From Bacteroidales bacterium (lineage in GTDB: Bacteria; Bacteroidota; Bacteroidia; Bacteroidales; F082): 64,000 nt of DNA. Positions within the stretch are counted from its first letter, which is position 1. The number at the start of each line of letters is the position of its first letter. Positions 5,156 through 59,547 of this stretch are shown piece after piece. A program made the position numbers and the translations under genes. Location: NCBI GenBank assembly GCA_017537965.1, contig JAFYJV010000016.1:57392-121391 (forward strand), in the 5' to 3' direction. Below the pieces are notes generated by a model. The model ran no database searches. It was not told the DNA's origin and saw only the letters and a list, made by a program, of their open reading frames with translations.

Positions 5156-5198
5156 TTCTAAACTTCTTACTTCTAACTTCTGTCTTCTGTCTTCTATC
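5156..5198. repeat. heptameric tandem repeat tract (TTCTnnC units)
   Basis: Five consecutive 7-base units can be read: TTCTTAC, TTCTAAC, TTCTGTC, TTCTGTC, TTCTATC, preceded by a partial unit. On the coding strand of the flanking minus-strand genes these are AGAAGTC-like. The tract fills most of the 57-base gap between the dnaX stop and the M13 peptidase start. It belongs to the dispersed repeat family described in the findings. Confidence 0.85.
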
Positions 5199-5202
5199 AT
5201 TC

Positions 5203-6951
5203 TCACAAATCCCCCTCTAGTTTCAACTCATTCTGAAGCTTCCTGAGCTCTGGATGGGCTTGGGCAAGCTTCTCGAATTTCTCTTTATCGGTATAGGCTT
5301 CGATCTCCGCTGGTTTCTCCATGACCTCGGGAATCAGATCATATTGGTTGTTATGGAGCGTGTTTTTAAGGTGGCTTCTCAAGGCGGTCATGCCATCGGT
5401 GTCGTTTTCGAACAGCTTGTTATCGACATGGAAGTGGATTTCCTTTTCTCCTTTCAGCTCGGGTTTGTATTTGCCCAGTCCCGCAGCAAAATTGGGGGAT
5501 ATTTTCTTGTATTTGTTTACGAATTCGTTCCATGAAGCCTCCAGCTGCTCTTGCGTAAAGGAAGAGTCCCATTTTGGTTCCTCTTCTTCATCCTTCTTGC
5601 TGGCTTGTTCCATGCTGTTGGTGATGGAGATGGTGCTGGTGCTGTTTCGCTGACGGGGACGGGTTTGAATTGGCTCGGTTGGTGTTTTTCCTTTGTCTGA
5701 TTTGACTTCTTGGAGCGCTTCTCCGTTCTGTTTCCTGTCTTCCGTTTTGGCAAGAGTCTCCTTCGAAACTAGGTTTGTTTGGGGTTGTGGCGGATTAACT
5801 CCGCCTGACGTAGGGTTTGCCGTAGGTGTATTTGGCATTACTACTGTCTTCTGGCTTCTGTCTTCTGGATTCGTCATCTTCAATAGGCTCACCTCCAGGT
5901 GCAGACGCTTGTTGCTGGCGCTGCGGTAGTCGATGTCGCATTGGTCGTTGAGGTCCAATGCCCGTACCAGGAAGGGGAGGGAACAACGTTGCGACTGGGC
6001 GATGTAACGCTGGCGGAGCTGCTCGCTAACCTCCAGGAGTTGCGTTGTGGCGGGATCTTTGCTGACGAGCAGGCTCCTCAAGTGGTTGCCCATTCCAGTG
6101 ATAAAATGCTGAGGTTCAAATCCTTTCCCTATGATGTCGTTGAGTATCAAAAGGATGTCGCTGGTGTTGCTTTGCAACAGGTCGTCAACAATCCTGAAAT
6201 AGTAGTCGTAGTCGAGCACATTCAAGTTCTCGATCACCGAGGCATAGGTGATGGTTTTTCCTGAGAAGCTAACCATCTGGTCAAAAATGGAGAGGGCGTC
6301 GCGTAAGGCACCGTCGGCTTTTTGGGCGATGATATTCAACGCCTCCGGCTCGGCCTGGATGCCTTCCATGGCGGCGACATGAGCCAAGTGTTTCTCAATG
6401 TCTTCAATGGTAATGCGTTTAAAATCAAATATCTGGCATCTCGAAAGGATGGTCGGGATGATCTTATGCTTCTCAGTGGTGGCCAGGATGAACTTGGCAT
6501 ACGCTGGCGGTTCCTCCAAGGTCTTGAGGAAGGCGTTGAAGGCGGCGGCGCTAAGCATGTGTACCTCATCGATGATATAGACCTTGTATTGGCCTATCTG
6601 CGGAGGGATCCTGACTTGTTCCACCAAGTTGCGGATGTCTTCCACTGAGTTGTTGGAGGCGGCATCCAGCTCATAGATGTTGAACGAGGCATTGTTGTTG
6701 AAGGCACGGCACGACTCGCATTCGTTGCAGGCTTCCATGTTCTCGGTGGGATGGAGGCAGTTGATGGTCTTGGCCATGATACGGGCACAGGTCGTCTTGC
6801 CTACGCCTCGGGGACCGCAGAACAAAAACGCCTGGGCCAGGGTGTTGTTCTTGATGGCGTTCTTTAACGTGGTTGTGATGGATTGCTGGCCAACCACCGT
6901 GTCAAAGGTCGCCGGTCTGTATTTTCTCGCTGATACAATGAAGTTCTCCAT
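5203..6951 (-). CDS. dnaX: DNA polymerase III subunit gamma/tau
   Basis: 582 residues. Clamp-loader AAA+ domain with Walker A GPRGVGKT (46-53), a four-cysteine zinc module (C65, C75, C78, C81), Walker B DEVH (128-131) and the SRC sensor segment (about 168). A low-complexity linker (about 360-450) and a tau-like C-terminal domain follow. It builds the clamp loader that places the beta sliding clamp on DNA. I see no A/G-rich slippery heptamer of the E. coli type, so a frameshifted gamma form is not supported. The linker contains in-frame AGAAGNC-like heptamers at 5843-5868 (peptide EDRSQK) and a weaker set near 5725-5755. A minus-strand promoter -7 element lies just upstream. Confidence 0.97.
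   Translation of the reverse strand: MENFIVSARKYRPATFDTVVGQQSITTTLKNAIKNNTLAQAFLFCGPRGVGKTTCARIMAKTINCLHPTENMEACNECESCRAFNNNASFNIYELDAASNNSVEDIRNLVEQVRIPPQIGQYKVYIIDEVHMLSAAAFNAFLKTLEEPPAYAKFILATTEKHKIIPTILSRCQIFDFKRITIEDIEKHLAHVAAMEGIQAEPEALNIIAQKADGALRDALSIFDQMVSFSGKTITYASVIENLNVLDYDYYFRIVDDLLQSNTSDILLILNDIIGKGFEPQHFITGMGNHLRSLLVSKDPATTQLLEVSEQLRQRYIAQSQRCSLPFLVRALDLNDQCDIDYRSASNKRLHLEVSLLKMTNPEDRSQKTVVMPNTPTANPTSGGVNPPQPQTNLVSKETLAKTEDRKQNGEALQEVKSDKGKTPTEPIQTRPRQRNSTSTISITNSMEQASKKDEEEEPKWDSSFTQEQLEASWNEFVNKYKKISPNFAAGLGKYKPELKGEKEIHFHVDNKLFENDTDGMTALRSHLKNTLHNNQYDLIPEVMEKPAEIEAYTDKEKFEKLAQAHPELRKLQNELKLEGDL
5843..5868. repeat. heptameric repeat tract inside dnaX
   Basis: Units TTCTGGC, TTCTGTC and partial TTCTGG lie in the part of dnaX that encodes the flexible linker. 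Read on the coding strand they give EDRSQK. The same kind of sequence occurs in intergenic gaps elsewhere in the window, so this looks like a repeat that entered or arose in a tolerant part of the gene. Confidence 0.7.
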
Positions 6952-6976
6952 GAGCGCTGCTTAGTGATTGAACCAA

Positions 6977-6984
6977 CAAAGATA
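6977..6984 (-). promoter_or_regulatory. -7 promoter element of dnaX
   Basis: The plus strand reads CAAAGATA, which is TATCTTTG on the coding strand, an exact TAnnTTTG Bacteroidota -7 element. It lies about 25 bases before the dnaX start. No clear TTG -33 element is seen at the usual spacing. Confidence 0.6.
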
Positions 6985-7054
6985 GACTTTTTTTTGCTGC
7001 GATTTGGGTTTTGTCCGCTTTTTTTCCTTACGTTTGCTCCATAATTGCCAAATT

Positions 7055-9243: not shown

Positions 9244-9294
9244 TATCTTTTGAAAAAAAAGTTCTTTTTTCTTTTTTTCAACCGCTATTTGTTG

Positions 9295-9302
9295 TATTTT
9301 TG
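9295..9302 (+). promoter_or_regulatory. -7 promoter element of upp
   Basis: TATTTTTG fits TAnnTTTG, with a T-rich block about 20 bases upstream. Because the possible GTG start at 9302 falls inside this element, the ATG at 9320 is the better start for upp. Confidence 0.65.
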
Positions 9303-9319
9303 TGTCAAACTCTAGCATT

Positions 9320-9982: not shown

Positions 9983-10010
9983 TCAAGGTTTTATGTAAAA
10001 TACCAAAAGG

Positions 10011-12103: not shown

Positions 12104-12215
12104 GTTGGGATGATATCGTTGCCGCAAAGATATAACAAATGTTATAAATATTCCAAAAATATTATATTAAATTCAACAATCATCAAATAATTGCGAGTAT
12201 TAGTGCGAAAAGTGC

Positions 12216-12223
12216 TATCTTTG
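12216..12223 (+). promoter_or_regulatory. -7 promoter element of the secreted protein gene at 12232
   Basis: TATCTTTG, an exact TAnnTTTG match. A TTG at 12191-12193 is the likely -33 (22-base spacer). The start codon follows within nine bases, so the leader would be very short. Confidence 0.6.
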
Positions 12224-12231
12224 CATCCAAT

Positions 12232-16840: not shown

Positions 16841-17668
16841 CTATACCGAAACCTCGCCTTTGATTGCGGGGTATGGGTCATAATTAATTAAGGTAAAGTC
16901 CTCGTATTTGAAGCTGAAGATGTCTTTCACTGCGGGGTTAAGCAGCATGGTGGGTAGCGGACGAGGGATCCTTGTCAGCTGGAGTTGAACCTGTTCGATG
17001 AGGTTGTTGTAGATGTGTACGTCGCCGAAGGTGTGTACGAAGTCGCCGGGTTGCAGGTCGCAGACCTGTGCCATCATCATGGTGAGGAGGGCGTAGGAGG
17101 CGATGTTGAATGGCACTCCGAGAAACACGTCGGCGCTGCGTTGGTAGAGTTGGCATGACAGCTTGCCGTTGGCCACGTAGAACTGGAAGAAGGCGTGGCA
17201 AGGCGGCAGCGCCGCCTTGTGCGCCGCCACGTTGGCGGCGAAATCCTTCTCGTGCTCGTCGGGGAGCACGGAAGGATTCCACGCACTGACAATGTGCCTT
17301 CGGCTATTGGGATTCTCTTTGATGCTTCTCACCACCTCGGCGATCTGGTCGATGCCTTCGTTGTTCCAGTTGCGCCACTGCGCACCGTAAACAGGTCCCA
17401 GGTCGCCGTTCGGGTCGGCCCACTCGTCCCAGATGCTGACCTTGTGGTCGTGCAGGTAACGGATGTTGGTATCGCCGCTCAACAGCCACAGCAACTCGTA
17501 GATGATGGATTTCAAGTGGACCTTTTTCGTGGTGACCAAAGGAAACCCCTCTGAAAGATCGAACCGCATCTGGTAGCCGAACACGCTGATGGTGCCGGTG
17601 CCTGTGCGGTCGCCCTTCTGGATGCCGTGGTCGAGGATGTGCTGGAGCAGGTCGAGGTATTGTTTCAT
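16841..17668 (-). CDS. thyA: thymidylate synthase
   Basis: 275 residues. The catalytic Cys lies in [13 protein letters not shown], followed by [20 protein letters not shown], the dUMP- and folate-binding block. The N-terminal [13 protein letters not shown] is also typical. It methylates dUMP to dTMP using methylene-tetrahydrofolate. It sits between a nucleoside permease (19 bases upstream, gap made of heptamer repeats) and folA, forming a dTMP/folate operon. Confidence 0.97.
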
Positions 17669-17696
17669 AGAAGTCAGAAGACAGAAGTTAGGAGTT
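17669..17696. repeat. heptameric repeat tract between the nucleoside permease gene and thyA
   Basis: Units AGAAGTC, AGAAGAC, AGAAGTT and AGGAGTT run in perfect 7-base register. They occupy the whole gap and include the stop codon and last residues of the permease gene. Confidence 0.85.
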
Positions 17697-18980: not shown

Positions 18981-18994
18981 ATTTTTGAGAATTT

Positions 18995-19015
18995 AGAATG
19001 CAGAAGTAAGAATTA
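18995..19015. repeat. heptameric repeat tract upstream of the nucleoside permease gene
   Basis: Units AGAATGC, AGAAGTA and AGAATTA (a degenerate fourth unit follows) fill the 32-base gap before the stop of the next gene upstream. Confidence 0.7.
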
Positions 19016-19860: not shown

Positions 19861-22107
19861 ATGAGTCTTTCAATCGTTTATTGGGTGTTGGCTGCCTCTA
19901 TTTTGGCGCTGGCATTCGCTTTCTTCTTCTACAAGTCCATGATGAAAGAAGATGAAGGCACCGATTTAATGAAGAAGATCGCCGCGCACGTCCGCAAGGG
20001 CGCCATGGCCTACCTGAAGCAACAGTACAAGGTGGTCATCATCGTCTTTATCGTGTTGGCGATTGTGTTTTTCGTCATGAGCCTGTTCCATCTGCAGAAC
20101 GGCGTCGTGTGGTTCGCCTTCCTTACTGGCGGTTTCTTCTCCGGTCTGGCAGGTTTCTTCGGAATGAAGACGGCCACATACGCCTCGGCTCGTACGGCCA
20201 ATGCTGCCCGTCGTTCGTTGAACAGCGGCTTGAAGGTCGCCTTCCGTTCGGGTGCCGTGATGGGTCTTGTCGTGGTGGGTCTCGCCCTGCTCGACGTCTC
20301 TGTCTGGTTCCTGGTCTTGAAAGGCACCAAGCTGCTTGAGATGGTGGGAGCCCAAGCCGATCTTGTGACGATCACCACTACCATGCTGACCTTCGGTATG
20401 GGTGCTTCCACTCAGGCTCTGTTCGCCCGTGTGGGTGGCGGTATCTACACCAAGGCCGCCGACGTGGGTGCCGACCTCGTAGGTAAGACCGAGTACAACA
20501 TCCCCGAGGATGACCCGCGTAATCCTGCTACCATTGCCGATAACGTCGGTGACAACGTCGGCGACGTGGCAGGTATGGGTGCCGACCTCTATGAGTCATA
20601 CGCTGGTTCTATCCTGGCAACCATGGCCTTGGGCGCTTCCGCTTTCGCCACTGCGGCCACTCAGAGTGCCGCCGGTGCCGAGATGCAGCTGAAAGCCGTG
20701 TTCGCTCCCATGCTGATTGCCGCCGCAGGTGTGCTCCTTTCATTGATTGGCATCTTCCTGGTTCGTACCAAAGAGAATGCTGGCATGAAGCAATTGCTTG
20801 GTGCGTTGAGCCGTGGCACGAATACAGCAGCTGTGTTGATCGCCGCTGCAACGTTTGGCATCATGTATTTCCTCTTCGGAAAAGAGACGGGTGCCTACGC
20901 CAATATGTGGTGGCAGACCTCGCTCTCCGTGGTTGTTGGCTTGTTGGCAGGCGTGATCATCGGAAAAGCTACAGAATATTATACTTCACAGAGTTATAAA
21001 CCTACCCAGAAAGTGGCCGAGAGTTCCAAGACGGGACCCGCCACGGTGATCATCTCCGGTCTGGGTCTGGGTATGCTTTCAACAGCCATCCCGGTCATCA
21101 CCGTAGGTGTGGCTATCGTGTTGGCTTATCTTTGCGCCAATGGATTCAACATTGAATTCACTGCCGTCAACCTTTCGAGAGGTCTCTATGGTATCGGTAT
21201 CGCTGCCGTGGGTATGCTCTCTACATTGGGTATCACACTGGCTACCGACGCTTACGGTCCTATTGCCGACAACGCTGGCGGTAACGCCGAGATGAGCGGC
21301 CTCGATCCTGAAGTCCGCAAACGTACCGACGCTCTTGACGCTCTCGGCAATACCACTGCCGCCACCGGTAAGGGCTTCGCCATCGGTTCCGCTGCTCTGA
21401 CAGCTCTCGCATTGTTGGCATCGTATGTCGAGGAAATCAAGATCGCCTTGCTGCGTGTCGGTGAGGCTACGATGGATATCGGTGAAAGAATTGTTGACAC
21501 GGCAAGTGCTTCGTTGATCGACTTCATGGAGTTCTATCAGGTGAACCTGATGAATCCTGTCGTTCTCGTGGGTATCTTCATCGGTGCCATGATGGCATTC
21601 GTGTTCTGCGGCATGACGATGAACGCCGTGGGACGCGCTGCCCAGAAGATGGTTGAAGAGGTGCGCCGTCAGTTCAGCACCATCAAGGGTATCCTTGAAG
21701 GCAAGGCTGAACCTGACTATGAGCGTTGCGTTGCCATCTCCACCAAAGGTGCCCAGCATGAAATGCTCGTGCCTTCCATCCTCGCCATCCTTGTCCCGAT
21801 TCTCACAGGCTTGATCCTTGGTGTTCCTGGTGTCCTCGGCCTGTTGATCGGTGGTCTCGCCACTGGCTTCGTGTTGGCTGTGTTCATGGCTAACTCAGGC
21901 GGTGCTTGGGACAATGCCAAGAAGTATGTCGAGGAAGGCAACTTCGGCGGTAAAGGCTCTGACAACCACAAGGCTACCGTTGTTGGCGATACCGTCGGCG
22001 ATCCGTTCAAGGATACGTCAGGACCTTCGCTGAACATCCTCATCAAGTTGATGAGCATGGTGAGCATCGTGATGGCCGGATTGACCGTCACTTGCCACCT
22101 GCTGTAA
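19861..22107 (+). CDS. hppA: membrane-bound ion-translocating pyrophosphatase, K+-dependent type
   Basis: 748 residues with about sixteen hydrophobic segments. The PPi-binding loops DVGADLVGKTEYNIPEDDPRN and DNVGDNVGDVAGMGADLYES are intact, as is the C-terminal GDTVGDPFKDTSGPSLN. The position that separates K+-dependent from K+-independent enzymes carries Ala500 in GNTTAATGKG, which by family knowledge means K+-stimulated. Many K+-dependent members pump Na+, and those of Bacteroides can pump both Na+ and H+. The protein uses the energy of PPi hydrolysis to build a membrane gradient. A complex hairpin and repeat region follows the stop. Confidence 0.96.
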   Translation: MSLSIVYWVLAASILALAFAFFFYKSMMKEDEGTDLMKKIAAHVRKGAMAYLKQQYKVVIIVFIVLAIVFFVMSLFHLQNGVVWFAFLTGGFFSGLAGFFGMKTATYASARTANAARRSLNSGLKVAFRSGAVMGLVVVGLALLDVSVWFLVLKGTKLLEMVGAQADLVTITTTMLTFGMGASTQALFARVGGGIYTKAADVGADLVGKTEYNIPEDDPRNPATIADNVGDNVGDVAGMGADLYESYAGSILATMALGASAFATAATQSAAGAEMQLKAVFAPMLIAAAGVLLSLIGIFLVRTKENAGMKQLLGALSRGTNTAAVLIAAATFGIMYFLFGKETGAYANMWWQTSLSVVVGLLAGVIIGKATEYYTSQSYKPTQKVAESSKTGPATVIISGLGLGMLSTAIPVITVGVAIVLAYLCANGFNIEFTAVNLSRGLYGIGIAAVGMLSTLGITLATDAYGPIADNAGGNAEMSGLDPEVRKRTDALDALGNTTAATGKGFAIGSAALTALALLASYVEEIKIALLRVGEATMDIGERIVDTASASLIDFMEFYQVNLMNPVVLVGIFIGAMMAFVFCGMTMNAVGRAAQKMVEEVRRQFSTIKGILEGKAEPDYERCVAISTKGAQHEMLVPSILAILVPILTGLILGVPGVLGLLIGGLATGFVLAVFMANSGGAWDNAKKYVEEGNFGGKGSDNHKATVVGDTVGDPFKDTSGPSLNILIKLMSMVSIVMAGLTVTCHLL

Positions 22108-22141
22108 GAAGACAGAAGTCAGAAGTAAGAAGTTAGAATCC
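22107..22141. repeat. heptameric repeat tract after hppA
   Basis: Five units, AGAAGAC, AGAAGTC, AGAAGTA, AGAAGTT and AGAATCC, start on the last base of the hppA stop codon. The stretch 22121-22133 is an exact reverse complement of 22168-22180 in the next tract, so the transcript can fold. Confidence 0.85.
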
Positions 22142-22155
22142 TATTCTCAAAAAGC

Positions 22156-22182
22156 TTCTTGCTTCTTACTTCTTACTTCTGG
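22156..22182. repeat. heptameric repeat tract in opposite orientation
   Basis: Units TTCTTGC, TTCTTAC, TTCTTAC and partial TTCTGG. It is the complement of the preceding tract and pairs with it over at least 13 bases. Confidence 0.85.
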
Positions 22183-22231: not shown

Positions 22232-22235
22232 CAAA

Positions 22236-22263
22236 TTCTTACTACTTTCTTCTGTATTCTGAA
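22236..22263. repeat. degenerate heptamer tract in the antiporter gene leader
   Basis: TTCTTAC, TACTTTC, TTCTGTA and TTCTGAA in 7-base register, lying between the promoter and the ATG at 22266. It would form the 5' untranslated region. Confidence 0.65.
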
Positions 22264-22265
22264 AA

Positions 22266-24530
22266 ATGGAATCTCTACCGGCATTATTCTCCGACCTTGC
22301 TTTGATCCTGATGACCGCTGGTATCACCACCGTGATCTTCAAGTGGTTGAAACAGCCTGTGGTTCTGGGTTACATCATCGCTGGTTTTTTGATCGGTCCC
22401 AACTTTGAGTGGTTCCCGGTCATCAACGACCACACCAGCGTAGAGACCTGGAGTGAGATCGGCATGGTGTTCATGCTCTTCGGTATCGGATTGGAGTTTA
22501 GTTTCAAAAAATTGAAAAAGGTGGGGGGGACTGTTGGCATCACCGCACTCACCGAACTGGTTACCATGTGCGTCGTGGGTTTCTTGTTGGGCAAGATCTT
22601 GGGATGGTCGCAAATGGACAGTATCTTCCTTGGAGCCATGCTTTCGATCTCATCCACTACGATTATCGCCAAGGCTTTTGAGGATATGAAGCTGTATCGT
22701 GAGAAGTTCAGCGGCAATGTCATCGGTGAGTTGGTGGTGGAAGACTTGGAGGCCGTGTTGCTCATGGTCGTCCTTTCCACTTTGGCTGTGAGTAAGACCT
22801 TTGATGGCATGCAGTTGATGTACAGTATGTTGAAGCTGGGATTTTTCCTGCTGGTATGGTTTATCGGTGGCATTTTCCTGGTGCCTACGGTCTTGCGATG
22901 GGCTAGAAGGTTTATGTCGGAAGAGACGTTGACGGTATTCTCGGTAGGCCTTTGTTTCATGATGGTTGTGTTGGCCAATCTTGCGGGGTTCTCTTCAGCC
23001 TTGGGCGCATTCATCATGGGTTCCATCCTGGCAGAAACGCTGGAGGCAGAGATGATACACAAACTCACGACCCCGATCAAGAACCTCTTCGGTGCGGTGT
23101 TTTTCGTGTCGGTAGGTATGATGGTGGATCCGCATATTCTGGTGAGTTACTGGAGGCAGATCTTGGTCATCACCATTGTGTTGGTCTTGTTCAAGCCTTT
23201 GAGCAATGTGGTGGGTCGTCTTATCGCTGGTTTGGGATTGAAACAGGCCATACAAGGTGGATTTTGCTTCAGTCAAATTGGCGAATTCTCTTTCATCATT
23301 GCTGCATTGGGTCTTAGCTATGGTGTCATCGACGAGTTTCTGTATCCCATCATCGTCTCGGTGTCCATCATCACCACCTTTCTTACTCCATATGCCATCA
23401 AGGCTGCACTTCCAACATATCGTTGGGTGAGCGGCCATTTCCCTAAGCATTGGCTGAACCATCTCGAGAACAAGGAAAGAGGTATCAAGGTGAAGAGTGG
23501 CAAAAAGGTGAGCATGGCCAGCTTCGTCGGGCGCCAGTTCAAGCATATCATTGTCTATGTCGCCATTGTCATTGCGGTGCTGTTTCTTTGTTTCTGGGCG
23601 GGATCCGTCATCATGGATTACGTGCCGGGTGTATGGGGCAACGCCATCAGTGCTGCTGTCACCTTAGTGCTGGTGTCGCCTTTTCTTTGGGCTATTGGAT
23701 TCCGTCATACGTTGGTCAAGACTACGAAGAAGTTGATGGAAAACAGCCGTTTTAACAAGACTTTGATCCTGTCGATCTTCATCATCCGTTTTATCATCGT
23801 GTGGATTGTCGCTACTTCCGTGCTGCGTCATTATTTTAACGCTTCGTTTTGGTCGCGTTTGAGTGTGGGGGCGCCATATTTCCGTTTGATCAACATTGGC
23901 TTCGGATTGATATATGCAGTGATGCTTCGTGTGCTGAGTCCGGCGATGAAGTTCCATAAACGCATTGAAGAACGGTTTACCGACAACCTCAACAAGCGTC
24001 AGTCGTCCCAAGTGTTCGCTATCCCTGAGATCCTGCAAGAGAATTGCCATTTGCAGAAGATGACACTCAGTCCCGACAGTGTGTATTCCGGAAGGCTGAT
24101 CAAGGACACGGATTTCCGCGACAACTACAATGTGAGCGTGGTCAGCGTGGAACGGGGGAAGCAGCTTTATGAGCTCCCCAAGTCCGATTTCCAACTTTTT
24201 CCTTACGACAAGATCACTTTCGTCGGTCACGAGGATCATTTGCGTCTTCTGGTGAGTCGTGTAGAGGCGTTTGATGACACTTTGATCCAGGAACATGAGG
24301 AGAGTGATGTGGACATGTTCAATGTGGAGGTGAGTCCTGACAGTCCCTTTGTGGGCGTAGCTTTGATGGATTCGGGTCTTGCTGACAAATATGAGACGAT
24401 GATCATTGCCATTGAACGCGACGGACAGTTCATCTTGAATCCTTCTGCCAAGATCAAGTTCCAGCCTGCCGATGTGGTGTGGTTTGTCGCCCAAAAAGCC
24501 AAAGCCGAGGTGTTAATGAGGAGTGAGTAA
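22266..24530 (+). CDS. CPA2 family cation:proton antiporter with TrkA-C domains
   Basis: 754 residues. The first ~390 residues form a Na+/H+ exchanger domain of about twelve to thirteen helices, with signature parts GYIIAGFLIGPN, FGIGLEFSFKKL, SISSTTIIAKAFED and FCFSQIGEFSFIIAALGL. A second membrane part (about 415-550) is followed by cytosolic TrkA-C-like repeats (about 590-750, with LFPYDKITFVG and IKFQPADVVWFV). It resembles KefB/RosB-type K+ or Na+/H+ antiporters controlled by small-molecule binding. Its position after the cation-pumping pyrophosphatase suggests both manage ion and pH balance. The stop is directly followed by the ATG of topB. Confidence 0.92.
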   Translation: MESLPALFSDLALILMTAGITTVIFKWLKQPVVLGYIIAGFLIGPNFEWFPVINDHTSVETWSEIGMVFMLFGIGLEFSFKKLKKVGGTVGITALTELVTMCVVGFLLGKILGWSQMDSIFLGAMLSISSTTIIAKAFEDMKLYREKFSGNVIGELVVEDLEAVLLMVVLSTLAVSKTFDGMQLMYSMLKLGFFLLVWFIGGIFLVPTVLRWARRFMSEETLTVFSVGLCFMMVVLANLAGFSSALGAFIMGSILAETLEAEMIHKLTTPIKNLFGAVFFVSVGMMVDPHILVSYWRQILVITIVLVLFKPLSNVVGRLIAGLGLKQAIQGGFCFSQIGEFSFIIAALGLSYGVIDEFLYPIIVSVSIITTFLTPYAIKAALPTYRWVSGHFPKHWLNHLENKERGIKVKSGKKVSMASFVGRQFKHIIVYVAIVIAVLFLCFWAGSVIMDYVPGVWGNAISAAVTLVLVSPFLWAIGFRHTLVKTTKKLMENSRFNKTLILSIFIIRFIIVWIVATSVLRHYFNASFWSRLSVGAPYFRLINIGFGLIYAVMLRVLSPAMKFHKRIEERFTDNLNKRQSSQVFAIPEILQENCHLQKMTLSPDSVYSGRLIKDTDFRDNYNVSVVSVERGKQLYELPKSDFQLFPYDKITFVGHEDHLRLLVSRVEAFDDTLIQEHEESDVDMFNVEVSPDSPFVGVALMDSGLADKYETMIIAIERDGQFILNPSAKIKFQPADVVWFVAQKAKAEVLMRSE

Positions 24531-24531: not shown

Positions 24532-26532
24532 ATGATCGTTTGCATTGCCGAAAAACCGAGTGTTGCCAAAGACATTGCCAAGGTGCTGGGAGCCAACCAA
24601 GCGCATGATGGCTATATGGAAGGAAACGGCTATCAGGTGACGTGGACTTTCGGACATCTTTGTACCCTGAAAGAGCCGCAGGACTATACGGATCAATGGA
24701 AGGCATGGGCTTTGAGTAGATTGCCGATGATTCCGCCGCGGTTCGGCATCAAGCTGATTTCAGATAAAGGGGTGGAGAAGCAGTTTAGGATCATAGAATC
24801 GCTGTTTCAAAAAGCCGATAGCATCGTGAACTGTGGCGATGCTGGCCAGGAAGGCGAGTTGATCCAACGCTGGGTGATGCAGAAGGCCAAGGCGACCTGT
24901 CCCGTGCAGCGGCTGTGGATCTCATCATTGACGGAAGAGTCCATCCGCGAGGGTTTCAAGACCTTGAAGGACCAGTCGGAATACCAATCCCTATATGAGG
25001 CGGGCTTGTCGCGCGCCATCGGCGACTGGCTGCTGGGCATGAACGCCACGAGGCTCTATACGTTGAAATACGGACAAAATCGTCAGGTGCTGTCCATCGG
25101 TCGTGTGCAGACACCTACATTGGCCTTGATTGTCAACCGCTATCACGAGATCACCAACTTCAAGCCAGAGGCTTATTGGGTGCTGTCCACCATCTATCGC
25201 GATACCACTTTTACGGCTACCAAGGGCAAGTACGGTTCCGTCGAGGATGGACAGAAGGATCTGCAAAGCGTGGAAGGCAAAGAGTTTACTGTGACCGACA
25301 TCAGCACGAAGAAAGGTACGGAAGCTCCGCCACGGCTCTATGACTTGACTTCCTTGCAGGTGGAATGTAACAAGAAATATAACATGTCGGCCGAGCAGAC
25401 TTTGCAGACCATCCAGAGCCTGTACGAGAAGAAATACACCACCTATCCCCGTGTCGATACCACCTATCTGAGCGACGACATCTATCCCAAGTGTCCCGGT
25501 ATCTTGGCCAAGCTCACCAATTATGCTGACTTGACGGCACCGTTGGCAGGGAAAAAGCTGCCCAAGAGCAAGAAGGTGTTCGACAACAGCAAGGTCACCG
25601 ACCACCATGCCATCATCCCGACGGGCGTGGTGCCTTCGGGTTTGAGCTTTGCCGAGGAGAAGGTCTATGACGAGGTTTGTCGTCATTTCATCGCCGTGTT
25701 TTATCCCGATTGCCAGTTTGCCACGACCATTGTCTTGGGCAAGGTCGAAGATGTCGAGTTTAAAACCTCGGGAAAGCAAATCCTCGTTCCCGGTTGGCGA
25801 GAAGTCATAAGAAGTCAGAAGTCAGAAGACGGAAGTCAAGAGACAGAAGAAGAAAAGACGTTACCCATTTTTGCTAAAGGTGAACATGGCCCCCACAAGC
25901 CACAATTAGCTGAAAAATGGACCCAACCTCCGAAGCCTTACACCGAGGCGACCTTGCTCCGTGCCATGGAAACGGCAGGCAAATTGGTCGATGACGAATC
26001 CCTTCGCGAGGTCATGAAAGAGAACGGCATCGGCCGTCCTTCTACCCGTGCTGCCATCATCGAAACGCTGTTCAAGCGCAACTATATCCGCAAGATCCGT
26101 AAAAGCCTGGAACCCACACCCACGGGCATCGAGCTCATCGGCCTCATCCACGAGGATCTCTTGAAAAGCGCCGAACTCACCGGCATTTGGGAGAAAAAGC
26201 TTCGTGAGATAGAGCAGCACAAATACGAGGCACGACAGTTTCTTGAAGAGCTCAAGCAGATGGTTTCTGAGATCGTCAACACTGTGATGCTCGACAATAG
26301 CAATCGCCGAGTGGCAGTGACGGTTCAAGAAGAAAAGCCAAAGAAACAAGCCTCCAGAAAAACGACGACACCTAAGCCGAAAAAGGCTCCAGCCGCTCCA
26401 ACTGAAACCAATCCCGATGCCATTATTGGGCAACCTTGCCCCTTATGCGGCAAGGGCCATATCATCAAAGGAAAGACTGCTTACGGCTGTTCCGAATGGA
26501 AGAATGGATGCGGGTGGAGGAGGGTGTTTTAG
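24532..26532 (+). CDS. topB: DNA topoisomerase III
   Basis: About 666 residues from the ATG at 24532; a GTG at 24523 is possible but overlaps the previous gene. The TOPRIM domain starts with CIAEKPSVAKDIAKVLG and includes the NCGDAGQEGELI acidic motif. The catalytic Tyr305 lies in TTYPRVDTTYLS. GRPSTRAAIIETL follows, and one C-terminal zinc finger (CPLCGKG, then CSEWKNGCGW) ends the protein. It is a type IA enzyme that decatenates and relaxes negatively supercoiled DNA. An AGAAGTC heptamer array (25800-25851) adds the in-frame peptide RSQKSEDGSQETEE between the core and the GEHGPHKP segment. Confidence 0.95.
   Translation: MIVCIAEKPSVAKDIAKVLGANQAHDGYMEGNGYQVTWTFGHLCTLKEPQDYTDQWKAWALSRLPMIPPRFGIKLISDKGVEKQFRIIESLFQKADSIVNCGDAGQEGELIQRWVMQKAKATCPVQRLWISSLTEESIREGFKTLKDQSEYQSLYEAGLSRAIGDWLLGMNATRLYTLKYGQNRQVLSIGRVQTPTLALIVNRYHEITNFKPEAYWVLSTIYRDTTFTATKGKYGSVEDGQKDLQSVEGKEFTVTDISTKKGTEAPPRLYDLTSLQVECNKKYNMSAEQTLQTIQSLYEKKYTTYPRVDTTYLSDDIYPKCPGILAKLTNYADLTAPLAGKKLPKSKKVFDNSKVTDHHAIIPTGVVPSGLSFAEEKVYDEVCRHFIAVFYPDCQFATTIVLGKVEDVEFKTSGKQILVPGWREVIRSQKSEDGSQETEEEKTLPIFAKGEHGPHKPQLAEKWTQPPKPYTEATLLRAMETAGKLVDDESLREVMKENGIGRPSTRAAIIETLFKRNYIRKIRKSLEPTPTGIELIGLIHEDLLKSAELTGIWEKKLREIEQHKYEARQFLEELKQMVSEIVNTVMLDNSNRRVAVTVQEEKPKKQASRKTTTPKPKKAPAAPTETNPDAIIGQPCPLCGKGHIIKGKTAYGCSEWKNGCGWRRVF
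25800..25851. repeat. heptameric repeat array inside topB
   Basis: AGAAGTC at 25800, then AGAAGTC, AGAAGTC, AGAAGAC, GGAAGTC, AAGAGAC and AGAAGAA from 25810 on in continuous 7-base register. The frame of topB is kept through it. Three units are 21 bases, so an array can be read through in any frame without a stop. Confidence 0.85.
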
Positions 26533-29022: not shown

Positions 29023-30212
29023 TCAATTTCTAGGGTCTTCTTGCAGATCTCGATCTCTTCGGGATCGCCAGTGTATTTGCCGTGATCGTCGCTGAGCTTG
29101 ACCACCTTCTTCCATGTACGTTTCTCGGTGATCTTGGCAGCTGTGAGCTTCACCACGATGTTCATGGCCTTCACGTTGTCGATGTCGCAGGTGAGGTGGG
29201 TGCCGATGCCGAAGGAATCCTGCATGCGGCCGCCGACAGCCTCGTGGATGGCGATGGCCTCATCCACGTTCAGCCCATTGCTGAAGATGATGGACTTCTG
29301 TGCCGGGTCGATGCCAAGTTCCTTGTATTTGTTGATGATCTCTTCCAAGGCCTCGATGTTGTCGCCGCTGTCCACGCGCAGACCGTCGAACAGTTTGGCG
29401 TGCAGCGTGGTGAAGTTCTGGAAGAAGGCCTTGCGGGTATAGGTGTCGTAGAGGAACACGCCCAAACTGCCGGCATAAACCTCCTGCCAATAGTCCATGG
29501 CGAGGTAGTTGGCTTCGTTGTAGCCATACAAAGAGCAGGTCTCGATGAACTGGTGGCTCATGGTGCCGATGGGGGTGAGGTCATACTTCATGGCCAGTAG
29601 CACATTGGAGGTGCCTACAAAGCAGGTCTTGGTAAATTGCTTTTGTGCCTCGATGAACGAACGGATCACCAAGTCCTGATGTTCGAACGAGAAGCGGCGA
29701 CGGGTACCGAAATCACTGAACTTGACGCCGTTGCCAATCAAGCGGATACCTTTGTCGTACGACTTCTGGTATTCCTTTTCAGCATCGTAGTGCTCAAACT
29801 CGCCTTTCAGCTCGTGCGAGAGCTCTGAAACCGTAGCCAGGATGGGCATCTCCCAGAACACCGTGCGCCATAGCAATCCCGTGACTTGGATGTGGAGATG
29901 GCCTTCTTCGTCTTGGCTCACCTCGACTTCCGACGGTCTCAGATGGAAGCCTTTCAGGAAGGTGAAGAACCACAACGGAAAGTAGTAGCATTTCTGCTTC
30001 ATGAAACGTGCTTCCTCGCTGGTGATCCGAAGCTCGGAGAGGCTGTCGAACTGCTCCCGTAGCTTCTCTGCGAAGCCTTTCGGATAGACCGTGTTGTTGC
30101 GATCGACAAAGGTGTATTGACCCATGGCGCGTGGGAACTTCTGCAAATAGGCATAGCACACGCTGAACGTGTATAGGTCGTTGTCTAATAAGCTGTTAAT
30201 AATTCTTCTCAT
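29019..30212 (-). CDS. pncB: nicotinate phosphoribosyltransferase
   Basis: 397 residues, the standard length. The N-terminal LLDNDLYTFSVCYAYL, the central GTSNVLLAMKYDLTPIGTMSHQF (NAPRTase active-site His region) and FSNGLNVDEAIAIHE are diagnostic. It joins nicotinate to PRPP (ATP-assisted) in NAD salvage. The first codons (ATGAGAAGAATTATT) lie inside a heptamer repeat tract that also forms the 5' untranslated region. It may be cotranscribed with the DUF47-PiT-DUF47 genes upstream. Confidence 0.95.
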   Translation of the reverse strand: MRRIINSLLDNDLYTFSVCYAYLQKFPRAMGQYTFVDRNNTVYPKGFAEKLREQFDSLSELRITSEEARFMKQKCYYFPLWFFTFLKGFHLRPSEVEVSQDEEGHLHIQVTGLLWRTVFWEMPILATVSELSHELKGEFEHYDAEKEYQKSYDKGIRLIGNGVKFSDFGTRRRFSFEHQDLVIRSFIEAQKQFTKTCFVGTSNVLLAMKYDLTPIGTMSHQFIETCSLYGYNEANYLAMDYWQEVYAGSLGVFLYDTYTRKAFFQNFTTLHAKLFDGLRVDSGDNIEALEEIINKYKELGIDPAQKSIIFSNGLNVDEAIAIHEAVGGRMQDSFGIGTHLTCDIDNVKAMNIVVKLTAAKITEKRTWKKVVKLSDDHGKYTGDPEEIEICKKTLEID

Positions 30213-30256
30213 TCTTCTTACTCCTTTCTTCTTTCTTCTGACTTCTTTCTTCTATA
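30203..30256. repeat. heptameric repeat tract spanning the DUF47 stop and pncB start
   Basis: Units TTCTTAC, TCCTTTC, TTCTTTC, TTCTGAC, TTCTTTC and TTCTATA in register (30215-30256), with a degenerate left end. It contains the TAG stop of the upstream gene and the pncB start codon. Confidence 0.85.
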
Positions 30257-33063: not shown

Positions 33064-34128
33064 TCACTTCTTGCTATAACTGCGGTTCTTGTTTGCCCCA
33101 TGTGCCTCTAAATAGCCGAACTCCGTCAGTTGACGAAGGTAGCGTTTGGCAGTGGTGGGATTGAAGCTGAAATGCTTGACAATAGCTTCCGTTGTAATCT
33201 GGTCTTTATCGGCCGCAAAATCCAAAATATCGACCAGTTTCTCTGCCAAAGAGGGTTTTATCGACCATTTATCGACCATTTCCTGCTTCAAAGATAATTT
33301 ATCGACCATTTTCTCGGTTGTTGACTTCAGGTATTGGTCGATATCAGCCTGTAAATGTTGACAGTGCAGTCGGGTCATGCAGTCGACGAAGATGCTGATA
33401 TCCTCTTGTTCGCGAGTATCTACCAATGCCTGGATGTATTCGGCTTTGTCTTCTTTGAGCACCTTGGTTGGCAGAACGCCAAACTCCCATTGCAGCAGGT
33501 TCATCAGCAGGCGGCTGGTGCGTCCGTTGCCGTCGGCCCAAGGATGAATGGTCACCAATTCATAGTGTGCCCAGAAGCTAAGTTCGTAGATGGAAGCCAC
33601 ATCAGCAGGATCTATGGCCTTGCGTCGTTTGTTAAGTTCCTCGCAGAAAGCAGCCAGACGAGCAGGCACTTTCTGATACGGCAGGTACGACTTGCCGCCT
33701 ATTCCAGCCGTGACGTTCAACTTGCGCAGTTCGCCTTTGGCAGCAGAGAAATCCCCACCTATCGAGTGGTACTCACTCCCCGTGCGAGCCATTACCTTAG
33801 ACGCCAGCAGAACGAGCCAATCGACGGTGATGGGGTCATGCTTTTTAATCCACTCCCGTCCGTAGTCGTAGGCCACTTTAAGGTCGAGGTTCATCATCTG
33901 CTCCATCATGGTTCGCTTGCTGCTGGTGATGCCTTCGTCAAACAGCAGTTGCGCCTCCACCTCCGTCACCGTACTGCCCTCAATGGCGGTAGAGTGCGTA
34001 ATAATGGAGTACAGATAAAACTTCTCAAAGTCTATCTGATCCGAAATGCCCAGCGCCTTATGTTGCTGGAGCAACCTCAACAATATGTCCTTGTTCTCCT
34101 GTGTCATATTGGCTGCAAAGGTACTCAT
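33064..34128 (-). CDS. class II Fic family protein with C-terminal winged helix
   Basis: About 354 residues from the ATG at 34128; the longer frame adds a low-complexity N-terminus that overlaps a hairpin. The N-terminal inhibitory helix motif (S/T)xxxE(G/N) is S46-TAI-E50-G51. The catalytic FIC motif is H195-PWADGNGRTSR, fully canonical, so the enzyme should be active. Fic enzymes transfer AMP or related groups from nucleotides to target proteins. The C-terminus (about 265-354) has repeated MVDKLS/MVDKWS segments and a winged-helix domain (TTEAIVKHFSFNPTTAKRYL). The gene is on the same strand as the Wadjet operon, 297 bases further on, and may belong to the same island. Confidence 0.9.
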   Translation of the reverse strand: MSTFAANMTQENKDILLRLLQQHKALGISDQIDFEKFYLYSIITHSTAIEGSTVTEVEAQLLFDEGITSSKRTMMEQMMNLDLKVAYDYGREWIKKHDPITVDWLVLLASKVMARTGSEYHSIGGDFSAAKGELRKLNVTAGIGGKSYLPYQKVPARLAAFCEELNKRRKAIDPADVASIYELSFWAHYELVTIHPWADGNGRTSRLLMNLLQWEFGVLPTKVLKEDKAEYIQALVDTREQEDISIFVDCMTRLHCQHLQADIDQYLKSTTEKMVDKLSLKQEMVDKWSIKPSLAEKLVDILDFAADKDQITTEAIVKHFSFNPTTAKRYLRQLTEFGYLEAHGANKNRSYSKK

Positions 34129-47432: not shown

Positions 47433-47499
47433 TTCCACGTTTTCCACAAAATTCCACAATTGATTGTATTTGTGGAATTGGTTCCACAAAATTCCACAA
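47433..47499. repeat. TTCCACAA site array (possible operator)
   Basis: An 18-base sequence, TTCCACAAAATTCCACAA, occurs exactly twice (47442-47459 and 47482-47499), 40 bases apart. A reversed copy, TTGTGGAA (47470-47477), lies between them and a TTCCACG precedes them. The array lies between divergent promoters of the ureohydrolase and the lipoprotein genes, as expected of an operator bound by a multimeric regulator. The sites also resemble degenerate DnaA boxes (TTATCCACA). Confidence 0.75.
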
Positions 47500-47529
47500 C
47501 TATAAAAATTGATAGAATTTTATAAATAA

Positions 47530-52482: not shown

Positions 52483-52490
52483 TATTTTTG
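52483..52490 (+). promoter_or_regulatory. -7 promoter element of the 5'-nucleotidase gene
   Basis: TATTTTTG, 18 bases before the ATG at 52508, in the 61-base gap shared with the divergent kinase gene. Confidence 0.55.
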
Positions 52491-52507
52491 CAAAAAAATT
52501 CTACAAA

Positions 52508-53965: not shown

Positions 53966-54006
53966 GCCATTCTATCATTTTCGCAACAACTTTGAACGGA
54001 AAACAC

Positions 54007-54014
54007 TATTTTTG
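54007..54014 (+). promoter_or_regulatory. -7 promoter element of the galM-like gene
   Basis: TATTTTTG, 18 bases before the ATG at 54033. A TTG start at 54012 would lie inside it and is rejected. Confidence 0.6.
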
Positions 54015-54032
54015 CCAATCAAAAGTACGACC

Positions 54033-57043: not shown

Positions 57044-57118
57044 TTGAATTGCCAATATTGTTGGTTGAAATACCAAAACTCTTTTCCGAATGGCATGCTA
57101 AGTTGCGAGTAATTGTGT

Positions 57119-57126
57119 TATCTTTG
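57119..57126 (+). promoter_or_regulatory. -7 promoter element of the RND efflux operon
   Basis: TATCTTTG, 20 bases before the TolC-like start codon. No clear -33 TTG at normal spacing, so an activator may be needed. Confidence 0.55.
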
Positions 57127-57146
57127 CAACTTAATAAATAGGTATC

Positions 57147-58454
57147 ATGGAAAGACGATGTTATAAACTTGTGCCGGTGTTGTTGGCTTTGGGCCTAGCT
57201 TTTTCTGTTGCCAAAGCGCAGGAGCCGGTGCGAATCACGTTAGAACAAGCCCTTGAGATCGCCTTGTCGGAAAGCAACACCATCAAGATCGCCGACATGA
57301 CGGTGGAGAAAAGTGGCTATGCCAAGAAGGGCAGTTATGCCTCACTATATCCAAACGTCAGTTTGAGCGGTTCCTATCAGCGCACCTTGTTGAAGCAGGT
57401 GATGGTGATGGATATGGGTGGTCAGCCTATGGAAATCAAGGTGGGACGCGACAATAACATCAGTACGGCCGCTACGGCAAGCGTACCTTTGGTAAATGCC
57501 CAACTCTGGGAAAGCCTCAAGTTGTCGGCTCTCGACGTGGAGATGGCAGTGGAACAAGCCCGTTCTTCAAAGGTATCAATGATTTCACAGGTCAAGCAGG
57601 CGTTCTATGGAGTGCTCCTTGCCAAGGAGTCGCTTGCAGTGATGACACAAGTGTATGAGAACGCTCAGGCGAACTATGAGAAGACCCTTCAGCGTTTTCA
57701 GGTGGGCAAGGCATCAGAAGTGGAGAAGCTTAGGGCGCAGGTCACAGTGATGAATGCCGAACCCAATGTCTCCAGTGCCGAGAATGCTGTCCTGCTCGCC
57801 ACCTGGCAGCTGAAAGCCGTCATGGGCATGGATCTTGAGACGGACATCGAAGCCATTGGCGACATCAAGGATTATTCCAACCAGCTGTTGGCGCCCTACG
57901 CCAGTGAAGACGACATCAGCAACAACAGTTCCTTGCTTCAATTGGACATTCAGGATCGGATGTTGGAATCCACATTGAGGATGCAAAAGAGGCAATATCT
58001 CCCTACATTGTCAGCCAGCATCAACTACAACTATAGCGCAATGGGCGATGAAGAGCTCCGTTGGTTCCCATCTTCGGTGGCCGCAGTGAGCCTTAACATC
58101 CCTGTTTTCGATGGTTTCCAAAAGCATTTCAACATCAAACAAAGCAAGATCAACAAGGACATGCTTGCCCTTCAAAGGGAAGACGCTGAACGTCAGATCC
58201 GTATAGCCATCCGTAACTATAACGACCGTATCGCCTTGTGCGTGAAAAACTTTACCGCCGCCAATGCTACCGTGGAGATCGCCCAAAAGAGTTATGAGAT
58301 CTCGGAGAAGATGTATGAAGTGGGCAAGGCTACCTTGGTGGAACTCAACGACGCGCAGCTGGCATTGCAACAAGCCCAGCTCACGCAAGCCCAAGCAGTC
58401 TATAACTTCCTGGTGGCCAGGGCTTCATTGGATGAGTTGATTGGAAAAGAATAG
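57147..58454 (+). CDS. TolC family outer membrane efflux protein
   Basis: 435 residues with a cleavable signal peptide (end AKAQ). Mature TolC-like repeats start ITLEQALEIALSESNTIKIA and recur at about 205 and in the C-terminal half (LVELNDAQLALQQAQLTQAQ). This is the outer membrane duct of a tripartite pump whose other parts follow immediately. It is the first gene of the operon. Confidence 0.93.
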   Translation: MERRCYKLVPVLLALGLAFSVAKAQEPVRITLEQALEIALSESNTIKIADMTVEKSGYAKKGSYASLYPNVSLSGSYQRTLLKQVMVMDMGGQPMEIKVGRDNNISTAATASVPLVNAQLWESLKLSALDVEMAVEQARSSKVSMISQVKQAFYGVLLAKESLAVMTQVYENAQANYEKTLQRFQVGKASEVEKLRAQVTVMNAEPNVSSAENAVLLATWQLKAVMGMDLETDIEAIGDIKDYSNQLLAPYASEDDISNNSSLLQLDIQDRMLESTLRMQKRQYLPTLSASINYNYSAMGDEELRWFPSSVAAVSLNIPVFDGFQKHFNIKQSKINKDMLALQREDAERQIRIAIRNYNDRIALCVKNFTAANATVEIAQKSYEISEKMYEVGKATLVELNDAQLALQQAQLTQAQAVYNFLVARASLDELIGKE

Positions 58455-58489
58455 TGAATTTGTAGATTAGAATAATAACACAGAACAAT

Positions 58490-59512
58490 ATGAAACTAAA
58501 CAGATTTTTCATTTTGATGACGGCTGGTGCGCTGTTGTGCGCCTGTGGTACGAAAAACGAGGAACAAGCCCAGAAAACGCAGGTCAACCCCGTGGTCAGT
58601 GTGGTGACGGCACAAGCTGAGGATGTGGAGATCAACAACACTTATACCTCCAATATCGAGCCTTACGCCACCAACAATATCGTCTCCCAGACCGCTGGCC
58701 GTATCGTGAGCATCAATGCCGAAGTGGGCAGCCAGGTACGAAAGGGACAGGTGCTGGCCAAGATGGATGATGTCAATTTGACCAAGACCCGTCTCCAGAT
58801 CATCAATGACTCTACTGAGTTGAGCCGTCTCACAGAGCTCTATAACATTGGAGCTGTATCTCAAGCAGACTACGACCTCGCCAAACTCTCACTAAACCTC
58901 TCCAAGAAAACCTACAGCAATTTGGTTGAGAACACCTACCTGCGCAGCCCTATTCACGGTGTGGTGACGGCCCGCAATTACGACAAGGGTGACATGTATT
59001 CCATGACGCAGCCCATCTTCGTGGTAGAACAGATCGTTCCTGTGAAGATGCTGATCAACTTGTCGGAGAGTCTCTTCACCCAGGTGCACAAGGGCATGGA
59101 GTTTGACATCACCGTAGAGGCTTATCCGGGCGAGAGCTTTAAAGGCAAGGTCAACTTGATCTATCCTACGATCAATGCAACGACACATACCTTCCCGGTA
59201 GAGGTGGTCTGTCAGAACAACGACCAGCGGTTGCGTCCCGGTATGTTCGCTCGCGTGACGGCTACTTTTGGTGTCAACCATCATGTGGTGGTTCCTGATA
59301 TCGCCGTGGTGAAGCAGATGGGATCAGGCGAGCATTTTATCTACGTGTTGCAACCTGATAACACCGTGAAATACCAACTGGTGGAGCTGGGCAAGCGCCT
59401 CGGCAACAGATACGAGATCATCAGCGGCATCAACGAGGGCGACCAAATTGTCACCGAAGGCCAGGCCCGCCTGAAAGATGGCATCGCTGTTCAGGTGAAA
59501 GGTGATAATTGA
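58490..59512 (+). CDS. RND efflux periplasmic adaptor (membrane fusion) lipoprotein
   Basis: 340 residues. Lipobox LCAC near residue 18. Barrel-sandwich hybrid and short helical hairpin: SQTAGRIVSINAEVGSQVRK, then GQVLAKMDDVNL and YLRSPIHGVVTARNYDKGDM. The beta-barrel and membrane-proximal domains include RPGMFARVTATF and EGDQIVTEGQARLKDG. It joins the inner membrane RND protein to the TolC-like duct. Only a heptamer repeat tract separates it from the RND gene. Confidence 0.93.
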   Translation: MKLNRFFILMTAGALLCACGTKNEEQAQKTQVNPVVSVVTAQAEDVEINNTYTSNIEPYATNNIVSQTAGRIVSINAEVGSQVRKGQVLAKMDDVNLTKTRLQIINDSTELSRLTELYNIGAVSQADYDLAKLSLNLSKKTYSNLVENTYLRSPIHGVVTARNYDKGDMYSMTQPIFVVEQIVPVKMLINLSESLFTQVHKGMEFDITVEAYPGESFKGKVNLIYPTINATTHTFPVEVVCQNNDQRLRPGMFARVTATFGVNHHVVVPDIAVVKQMGSGEHFIYVLQPDNTVKYQLVELGKRLGNRYEIISGINEGDQIVTEGQARLKDGIAVQVKGDN

Positions 59513-59547
59513 TTCTTACTTCTTTCTTCTGACTTCTAACTTCTTAA
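59513..59547. repeat. heptameric repeat tract between adaptor and RND genes
   Basis: TTCTTAC, TTCTTTC, TTCTGAC, TTCTAAC and TTCTTAA in perfect register, starting on the first base after the adaptor stop codon and ending four bases before the RND start codon. Confidence 0.85.

Follow-up and report, generated by a model that had tools for sequence, protein, structure and literature searches.

What are the tandem arrays of seven-base units, built on the core AGAAG, that lie scattered between and within the genes of a 64,000-nt stretch of DNA from a rumen bacterium of the Bacteroidales (hereafter the window, meaning this whole stretch), and how did they come to be there? The initial annotation of the window had proposed that such tracts could be a product of replication slippage, a mobile seed, or elements for mRNA processing and spacing. 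Our sequence comparisons suggest that the heptad arrays of this bacterium and genes for proteins of the S23 family (PF05635) belong together as small mobile elements of a single kind that has so far been overlooked, and we lean towards the view that the tracts of the window are the terminal arrays of small S23 elements, standing on their own. Among the three proposals, the mobile seed is the best supported, because the arrays are present in some orthologous gaps and missing from others and share an internal polarity, and because they resemble the inverted ends of S23 genes in the host and in cyanobacteria; plain slippage fails to explain the shared order of the units. Two orphan puzzles would meet at this point, namely heptamer repeats with no agreed origin and S23 proteins with no assigned role. 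We know of no role for S23 proteins outside the intervening sequences of rRNA.

Heptad arrays at the borders of S23 genes

The S23 profile PF05635 gave matches in 49 of 60 genomes, the host included, and S23 genes were present in 232 of the 296 Bacteroidota genomes sampled. The host S23 gene encoding P0001 (locus L130, C18) lies on another contig of the same assembly, outside the window, and has an AGAAG array on either side, the two being inverted relative to each other. P0001 matches PF05635 with an E-value of 2.1e-36 as well as the solved proteins 2gsc (E 2.5e-18) and 2rld (E 6.7e-6), and residues Q40, R43, S47, N51, E54 and E77 are invariant among 12 aligned S23 proteins. Folded as RNA, the element at L130 gave -141.2 kcal/mol (z -4.68) with both arrays placed in the end stem; on such a folding model, a role of the tracts in mRNA processing is possible. 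A phage origin of P0001 was rejected, since no match was found in phages and none of 13 pattern matches in viral_contigs was confirmed. The second strong S23 gene of the host (C10) has flanking repeats of an AAGATTT type (partly judged by eye), and weak PF05635 relatives in the same genome (C12, C22, C27 and C31), which had no array beside the gene, were set aside. Repeats of the AAGATTT/AAAGATTC kind at L080, L144 and L141 proceed in mixed 7- and 8-base steps, the register not always being 7.

Bracketing by arrays was assessed in set C (S23 loci of the genus, taken from 40 matches hand-picked from a longer list), set A (the genus and other Bacteroidales) and set B (the whole phylum), from which loci cut by contig ends or lacking a clean frame were left out (1/40, 3/30 and 1/30, respectively). 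Arrays lay within 200 bp upstream of the gene in 27 of the 39 loci of set C, downstream in 29 and on both sides in 23, compared with 7 of 160 control bins of 200 bp; the corresponding values for set A were 17, 14 and 10 of 27 (control 5/269). The two flanks of a locus showed inverted complementarity of at least 20 in 29 of 39 cases in set C, as against 7/195 when flanks of other loci were used and 7/39 in the direct orientation, and set B still exceeded its permuted pairs (9/29 vs 1/145). Arrays on both sides combined with inverted complementarity were found at 18/39 loci of set C, 9/27 of set A and 1/29 of set B. Around open reading frames (ORFs) in general, this combination occurred in 0 of 335 on the window and C17, a host contig of 377,596 b that makes up ~16% of the assembly, and in 7 of 694 in L031-L084, five of the seven being S23 genes and both of the others coming from L060.

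On these comparisons, the heptad word goes with the S23 protein and not with the genome. Words were compared among the 56 S23 loci that had an array (10 of the 66 loci of sets A and C had none), using pairs from different genomes in non-orthologous locations, defined as having no tblastx or blastn match between flanks of 220-800 bp, a definition through which orthologous sites may slip. At a protein similarity of at least 0.5, the mean word distance was 2.25 and 16 of 116 pairs had identical words; at a similarity below 0.3, identical words were absent from all 1008 pairs. The test statistic, computed over the 457 pairs with a similarity of at least 0.3 (mean 2.89 vs 3.13), was matched by 0 of 5000 label permutations. 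In the MEVFGYRK subfamily of S23, the word AGTTTAG or AGTTGAG was found at 8 of 9 loci from 7 genomes, the ninth (L140) having ACTATGA. That the word depends on the genome alone was rejected, since S23 relatives in different genomes share words and S23 copies within the same genome mostly differ (43 pairs, one of them at distance 0-1). When 395 Bacteroidia genomes were drawn afresh, an AGAAG-like flank accompanied 6 of 15 relatives (46-61%) of the host S23 and 0 of 15 loci of another S23 type; two loci of this draw stand in both groups (L297 = L304, L299 = L307), L291 is truncated and L294 contains stops. As far as these data reach, the pairing of word and protein fades under ~50% identity.

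A tblastn search with the host S23 against plasmids returned 23 records, mostly from cyanobacteria. Sixteen of these and nine further matches were fetched, and 24 of the 25 loci (excluding the split gene L251) made up the plasmid set, 21 of them with arrays and with Bernardetia, a member of the Bacteroidota, among them. All 25 lie in gaps shorter than 600 bp between annotated protein genes (the gene table lists no RNA genes). Among six cyanobacterial plasmid S23s with 57-61% identity to that of the host, five (two from Nostoc and one each from Aulosira, Trichormus and Scytonema) have AGGAGTC/AGAAGTC/AGAATTC arrays, either on both sides or overlapping the gene end, and at four AGAAG-type plasmid loci the right array overlaps the end of the ORF. 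A 50-kb stretch of a Nostoc plasmid contained eight such arrays, four of them away from the S23 gene, and most ended in AGAATNN. The S23s of Pseudanabaena and Calothrix, which are nearest (54%) to the GCTAAC type described below, have GCTAAA/TTAGCTG arrays, and an S23 with internal stops from Monoglobus (Bacillota; 60.5%) shares the word AATTAGG with L209, the Bacteroidales locus nearest to it. For pairs of at least 53% identity in this comparison (39 pairs, 10 loci), the mean word distance was 2.23 as against 3.12 after permutation, with 0 of 5000 permutations as low. The co-variation of word and S23 protein is seen within the genus and, more weakly, across phyla. The plasmid S23 genes (L250-L274) are placed within tight operons: in Pseudanabaena and Anabaena sp. 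90 they lie between cas6 and cas4, in Picosynechococcus between cmr2 and cmr3, in Monoglobus between hsdS and hsdR, and in Nostoc edaphicum between the two ribonucleotide reductase genes.

Order, abundance and placement of the units in the host

Across 50 distinct tracts, taken from those parts of the host genome that were sampled, the units tend towards a common order, namely AGAAGTC, AGAAGAC, AGAAGTA/TT, AGAAGTA and AGAATNN, which follows the strand of the array itself regardless of gene direction. Units ending in C come earlier and AGAATNN later, and 0 of 5000 within-array permutations were as extreme (46 distinct arrays of at least 4 units); AGAATNN closes 17 of the 50 tracts. The first list of tracts had 51 rows, one of which was a duplicate (L008 = L007), and the test was repeated with the 50; a version with 47 rows gave the same result. 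Because the unit variants share this internal order, the tracts are not independent slippage products, and they look like copies of one element of ~35 bp.

The proposal of replication slippage, attributed to Mrazek et al. (2007) in PMC4679880 and PMC4692102, would have AGAAG-rich seeds expanded by the polymerase, with 7 nt as a favoured length, and tolerated in gaps. Heptamers are indeed reported as the commonest class of long simple sequence repeats (SSRs) in most genomes studied, gaps do tolerate the tracts, and the length of a tract varies between orthologues. An independent local origin of each repeat was nevertheless not what we found: the dispersed arrays share one order of variants (0/5000 permutations, 46 distinct arrays), and they are coupled both to S23 genes and to S23 protein similarity, so that we regard ordinary slippage as an improbable source. 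The order of the variants bears likewise on templated addition by a telomerase-like reverse transcriptase, in the manner of the tandem-repeat cDNA of DRT10, with subsequent capture into the chromosome. Synthesis of tandem-repeat DNA on an RNA template is known from bacterial enzymes (PMC12632851). The units here are ordered instead of uniform, however, and PF00078 (RVT_1), the reverse transcriptase family, had no match in the assembly, which is 93.8% complete (a templating RNA was not sought); this origin is extremely unlikely.

Absence of the tracts elsewhere in the genome had been named in the initial annotation as a finding that would speak against a repeat family, and the opposite was observed: the pattern AGAAGNCAGAAGNC has 60 matches, partly overlapping, in the 2.32-Mb assembly, compared with 18 for the reversed control pattern. 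The exact pattern reached at least 10 matches in 7 of 35 relatives within the genus; among 24 genomes from other families, one did so. On contig C17, period 7 accounted for 34 segments as against 0.0 in order-4 shuffles, and the other periods from 4 to 13 for 0-5. Of the 28 tracts on this contig, 24 lie in gaps and 4 within ORFs; the intergenic ones are distributed over same-strand (18), convergent (5) and divergent (1) gaps, the 186 gaps of at least 20 bp on C17 being divided into 113, 26 and 47, respectively. Many tracts, on either strand, occupy an entire stop-to-start gap of 25-41 bp.

This placement between stop and start, with few arrays in divergent gaps, and the presence of the purine strand on the mRNA in same-strand gaps in 18 cases vs 6, are what one might expect if the arrays were host elements under selection, such as sites for RNA- or DNA-binding proteins, terminators or leaders (a proposal made for TAACTGA by MacGregor, 2015). 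Both orientations occur, however, some arrays lie within ORFs, the neighbouring genes in the window that could be named by Pfam are diverse, and the same gap in relatives may have no array or another sequence altogether. We therefore consider selected host elements a very unlikely explanation.

Tracts of the window and the corresponding gaps in relatives

The gap in the window between a DUF47 gene (stop 30252) and a nicotinate phosphoribosyltransferase gene (start 30212) is wholly filled by a solo array of 6 units on the minus strand (30212..30253). In five relatives (L038, L040, L049, L057 and L072) this gap holds an insert of 506-522 bp that encodes an S23 protein between inverted GCTAAC arrays and that is placed between two protein genes, not in 23S rRNA. 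The nearest relative, L032, has a 3-bp gap at the site. In a tree of 29 taxa, L072 with its full insert is sister to L054 with a 3-bp gap, and L040 with a full insert is paired as sister with L075, which has the arrays only, the left junction being common to both; in L061, a short S23 remnant is still flanked by arrays (judged by eye).

These gaps also bear on the possibility that S23 genes are parasites that home into pre-existing arrays of their own word, in which case the solo arrays would be targets and not remnants. Such homing would fit genomes that are rich in AGAAG and have no cognate S23, and it would fit the large excess of single arms over pairs. Against it stand the empty pncB-side gap, which is an array-free 3 bp and is found also in L054, the sister of the full L072, and the AAGATTT-type flanks of the second strong S23 gene of the host (as above, partly by eye) even though AGAAG dominates the sampled contig. 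Homing is, in our judgement, rather unlikely.

The tracts of the window were located by a scan for at least 3 consecutive 7-base units, each with at least 4/5 matches to AGAAG, which recovered 10 tracts of 4-6 units. All ten tracts of the initial annotation were thereby found again, with their ends shifted by 0-14 bases. Order-3 Markov shuffles of the window contained a tract of at least 4 units in 1 of 40 cases (two tracts in that one), and a stricter scan kept 8 tracts, the degenerate arrays at 18988-19015 and 22233-22260 dropping out. Gene calls around the tracts were simple longest ORFs, and genes in the window were named by Pfam. The initial annotation had also noted that many tracts begin exactly at a stop codon or overlap with a start codon; this holds, and several do fill stop-to-start gaps of 25-41 bp, on either strand.

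The inverted array pair of the window consists of a left arm of 5 units at 22107..22141 (plus strand), whose first base is also the third base of an H+-pyrophosphatase gene's stop codon, and a right arm of 4 units at 22153..22180 (minus strand), with no ORF between the arms. A degenerate array at 22233..22260 (minus strand) follows just before the ATG of a Na/H-exchanger-like gene (22266-24530), and its position in relatives carries other heptads (ACCTCTA in L031, AACTCTA in L032 and AACTTTC in L063). Upstream of the same gene in L037-L041, L055 and L057 there are AACTGAT arrays, which correspond to the TAACTGA word of Beggiatoaceae and cyanobacteria; the S23 type of L208/L212, with flanks AACTGAT/AACTGCC, is a candidate cognate. 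The solo array at 17669..17696 (plus strand, 4 units) abuts the ATG of a thymidylate synthase gene (16841-17668, minus strand) and overlaps a nucleoside symporter gene at its 3' end. In the orthologous gap, L032, L034 and L070 have AGAAG arrays, L060 has GGAATGC, and L063 and L064 have no array; tract length differs between the orthologous sites of the window, L032, L034 and L070 (g1/g2 gap), where L063 and L064 have no tract. Heptads are densely spread in L060, where several words occur (GGAATGC, AGATAAA, AACGGAA and AATTAGG). Seven nt 5' of the symporter ATG lies the degenerate array AGAATTT AGAATGC AGAAGTA AGAATTA (18988..19015, plus strand), in whose gap L032, L063, L066 and L070 carry AGAATTT arrays.

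Two further solo arrays of 5 units, both on the minus strand, are situated at 5161..5195 (AGAAGAC AGAAGAC AGAAGTT AGAAGTA AGAAGTT), in the gap between a dnaX-like ORF (5203-6951) and an ORF at 3088-5145, and at 59510..59544, between two genes on the same strand (stop 59512, start 59552). The remaining arrays lie within ORFs: that of 4 units at 5839..5866 (minus strand) within the ORF at 5203-6951, likewise on the minus strand and called dnaX-like by Pfam, and that at 25810..25837 (plus strand), in frame within a topoisomerase III-like ORF (24532-26532), where it encodes part of an RSQKSEDG-type stretch; this stretch is variable among relatives, and L031, L036, L066 and L070, among others, have similar peptides.

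In the relatives, which are mostly Bacteroidales metagenome-assembled genomes from the ruminant gut (named genomes, with gaps sampled around one window gene), orthologous gaps thus hold heptad arrays of other words, or none. Base-for-base conservation of the unit, as in an ordinary leader sequence, is not seen. Since the same gaps carry different heptads, the position is reused while the word changes. A second dispersed repeat, of the CGTCATTGCGAGG...GAAGCAATCC type, occupies gaps of L031, L036 and L066 where other species have heptads, and a third dispersed segment, resembling ACCCCGTTAGGGGTTAAAGCTCGGTAG, recurs in gaps of L031, L034 and L063. Two-copy tandem repeats of ~41 and ~40 bp at 33228-33311 and 47442-47519 of the window are unrelated to the heptads.

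From what was observed directly, that is the arrays, their polarity, the inverted bracketing, the co-variation of word and S23 protein, the presence or absence in orthologous gaps and the ORF-less derivative with its shared left junction, we infer the following course of events. A complete element would comprise an S23 gene (PF05635) between two arrays of a 7-bp word, usually inverted, and each S23 subfamily would have its own word, that of the host P0001 being AGAAGWC, with the inner end of the array often formed by AGAATNN. Insertion of whole elements would take place between genes, and into short gaps in the cases seen. In transcripts, the arms could pair as a long stem of the kind found in rRNA intervening sequences. 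Where the ORF is lost, inverted pairs could be left behind, and single arms would be dispersed in the genome, the window presenting one pair and single arms, the latter presumably derived or copied from the ends of S23 elements. The S23 protein would act on its own heptad word.

A more far-reaching version is possible, though we would not call it probable: S23 proteins would be word-specific agents that recognise their own 7-nt word and copy arrays into gaps with the help of host enzymes, and S23 with its cognate heptad would be a minimal mobile element across Bacteroidota, Cyanobacteriota, Bacillota and Spirochaetota. If so, the heptamer repeats long known in cyanobacteria and elsewhere would be explained and the S23 family would gain a role. 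Should heptads and S23 subfamilies be paired, the repeat word would be predictable from the S23 gene sequence, arrays would be readable scars of former S23 activity, and the small helical S23 protein would be a candidate sequence-reading mobility factor.

Several observations weigh against an S23 origin of the arrays, or limit its reach. The data do not support a strict association between AGAAG solos and the cognate S23 in the genus: among the eight AGAAG-rich genomes (at least 10 AGAAGNC pairs; G000, G004, G008, G010, G013, G020, G023 and G034), only G000 has the cognate S23 and seven are without it (G020 and G034 are rated 100% complete), and G001 has a cognate S23 (71%) yet 0 AGAAGNC pairs. 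For AGTTKAG, there is a moderate link at genome level (one-sided p = 0.012 for 8 genomes that have the S23 and 28 that do not, uncorrected for kinship, genomes with S23 matches of 44-54% identity being counted among the 28). Inverted pairs are scarce relative to single arms, with 1 pair among 28 tracts on C17 and 1 among 8 in the window. The identical 3-bp empty gap is found in several clades, so that gain, loss and allele exchange are indistinguishable there. In the fresh draw, GCTAAC-type S23s had the expected word at 2 of 15 loci only, and of the 29 loci of set B, 3 had an array upstream, 5 had one downstream and 1 had both (control 4/289), so that the heptad form is weak phylum-wide. Among the plasmids, the Picosynechococcus S23 (58%) had no array over the threshold; the outer unit AGAATTC (AGAATTY) opens 6 of 8 Nostoc arrays and only 4 of 50 host tracts; the arms of the Pseudanabaena S23 are mainly direct repeats (direct score 69, inverted 28); and, with the annotated ends of the coding sequences, an inverted score of at least 20 was reached at 8 of 16 plasmid loci. 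The cut-off of 53% identity was of our own choosing, and for the ten loci above it the best-hit word distance was 0 once, 2 eight times and 3 once, four of the loci being near relatives.

Comparison with known systems

A close parallel is the intervening sequence of rRNA. That of Coxiella, which contains an S23 ORF, is 428-444 nt long and has been suspected of being selfish or mobile (PMC4990558). As in the intervening sequences of Coxiella and Leptospira, the S23 ORF (PF05635, encoded outside the window itself) lies between complementary, stem-forming ends, and the inserts described here measure 506-522 bp. The rRNA intervening sequences sit in 23S rRNA, whereas the present elements are found between protein genes; their arms are tandem heptads whose word is tied to the S23 subfamily, and single arms are dispersed. 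The element would work like an intervening sequence and is not classed as one.

Miniature inverted-repeat transposable elements (MITEs) and the repetitive extragenic palindromic (REP) sequences with their associated transposases (RAYT) are likewise small, dispersed, non-coding intergenic repeats that may depend on a protein acting in trans. The arms here share the word of the host S23 flanks, most copies are single arms, and, in contrast to both systems, the arms are tandem heptads. An origin through RAYT was rejected, since the Y1 transposase family (Y1_Tnp, PF01797) had no match in the assembly (REP palindromes were not sought). To Avd of the diversity-generating retroelements there is a weak likeness: P0001 matches bAvd (PF22296) with E 2.6e-5 and 25.1 bits, under the curated cut-off of 40, and the assembly has no reverse transcriptase match (template and variable repeats were not sought).

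The arrays themselves share two features with heptanucleotide SSRs, namely head-to-tail 7-bp units above chance and variable tract length at orthologous sites. Heptamer repeats in a cyanobacterium were reported in 1990 (as cited in PMC4692102), and indels in 7-nt steps have been reported for those of Cyanothece. The TAACTGA repeats of Beggiatoaceae, cyanobacteria and Bacteroidetes, the GGGAATC repeats of Xanthomonas and those of Calothrix are short tandem 7-mers, mostly intergenic and numerous in each genome, as are the arrays here. The initial annotation knew of no description in Bacteroidales; TAACTGA heptamers, however, are on record for five genomes of Bacteroidetes, that of Paludibacter among them (PMC4679880). 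None of the titles listed by a letter search of the literature for AGAAG-type repeats concerned bacterial repeats. The repeats treated in PMC4692102 are reported to be generally unassociated with mobile elements. The accessible text of PMC4679880 contains 0 mentions of S23 or four helix, the available passages of the other heptamer papers draw no link to S23, and among the titles and abstract openings listed from a partial literature collection, none joined S23 to heptads or inverted repeats. As far as these sources extend, then, both the class of heptamer repeats and the S23 ORFs with complementary ends in rRNA intervening sequences were known already; compared with the known heptamers, the word, the polarity and the bracketing of S23 genes are specific to the arrays described here.

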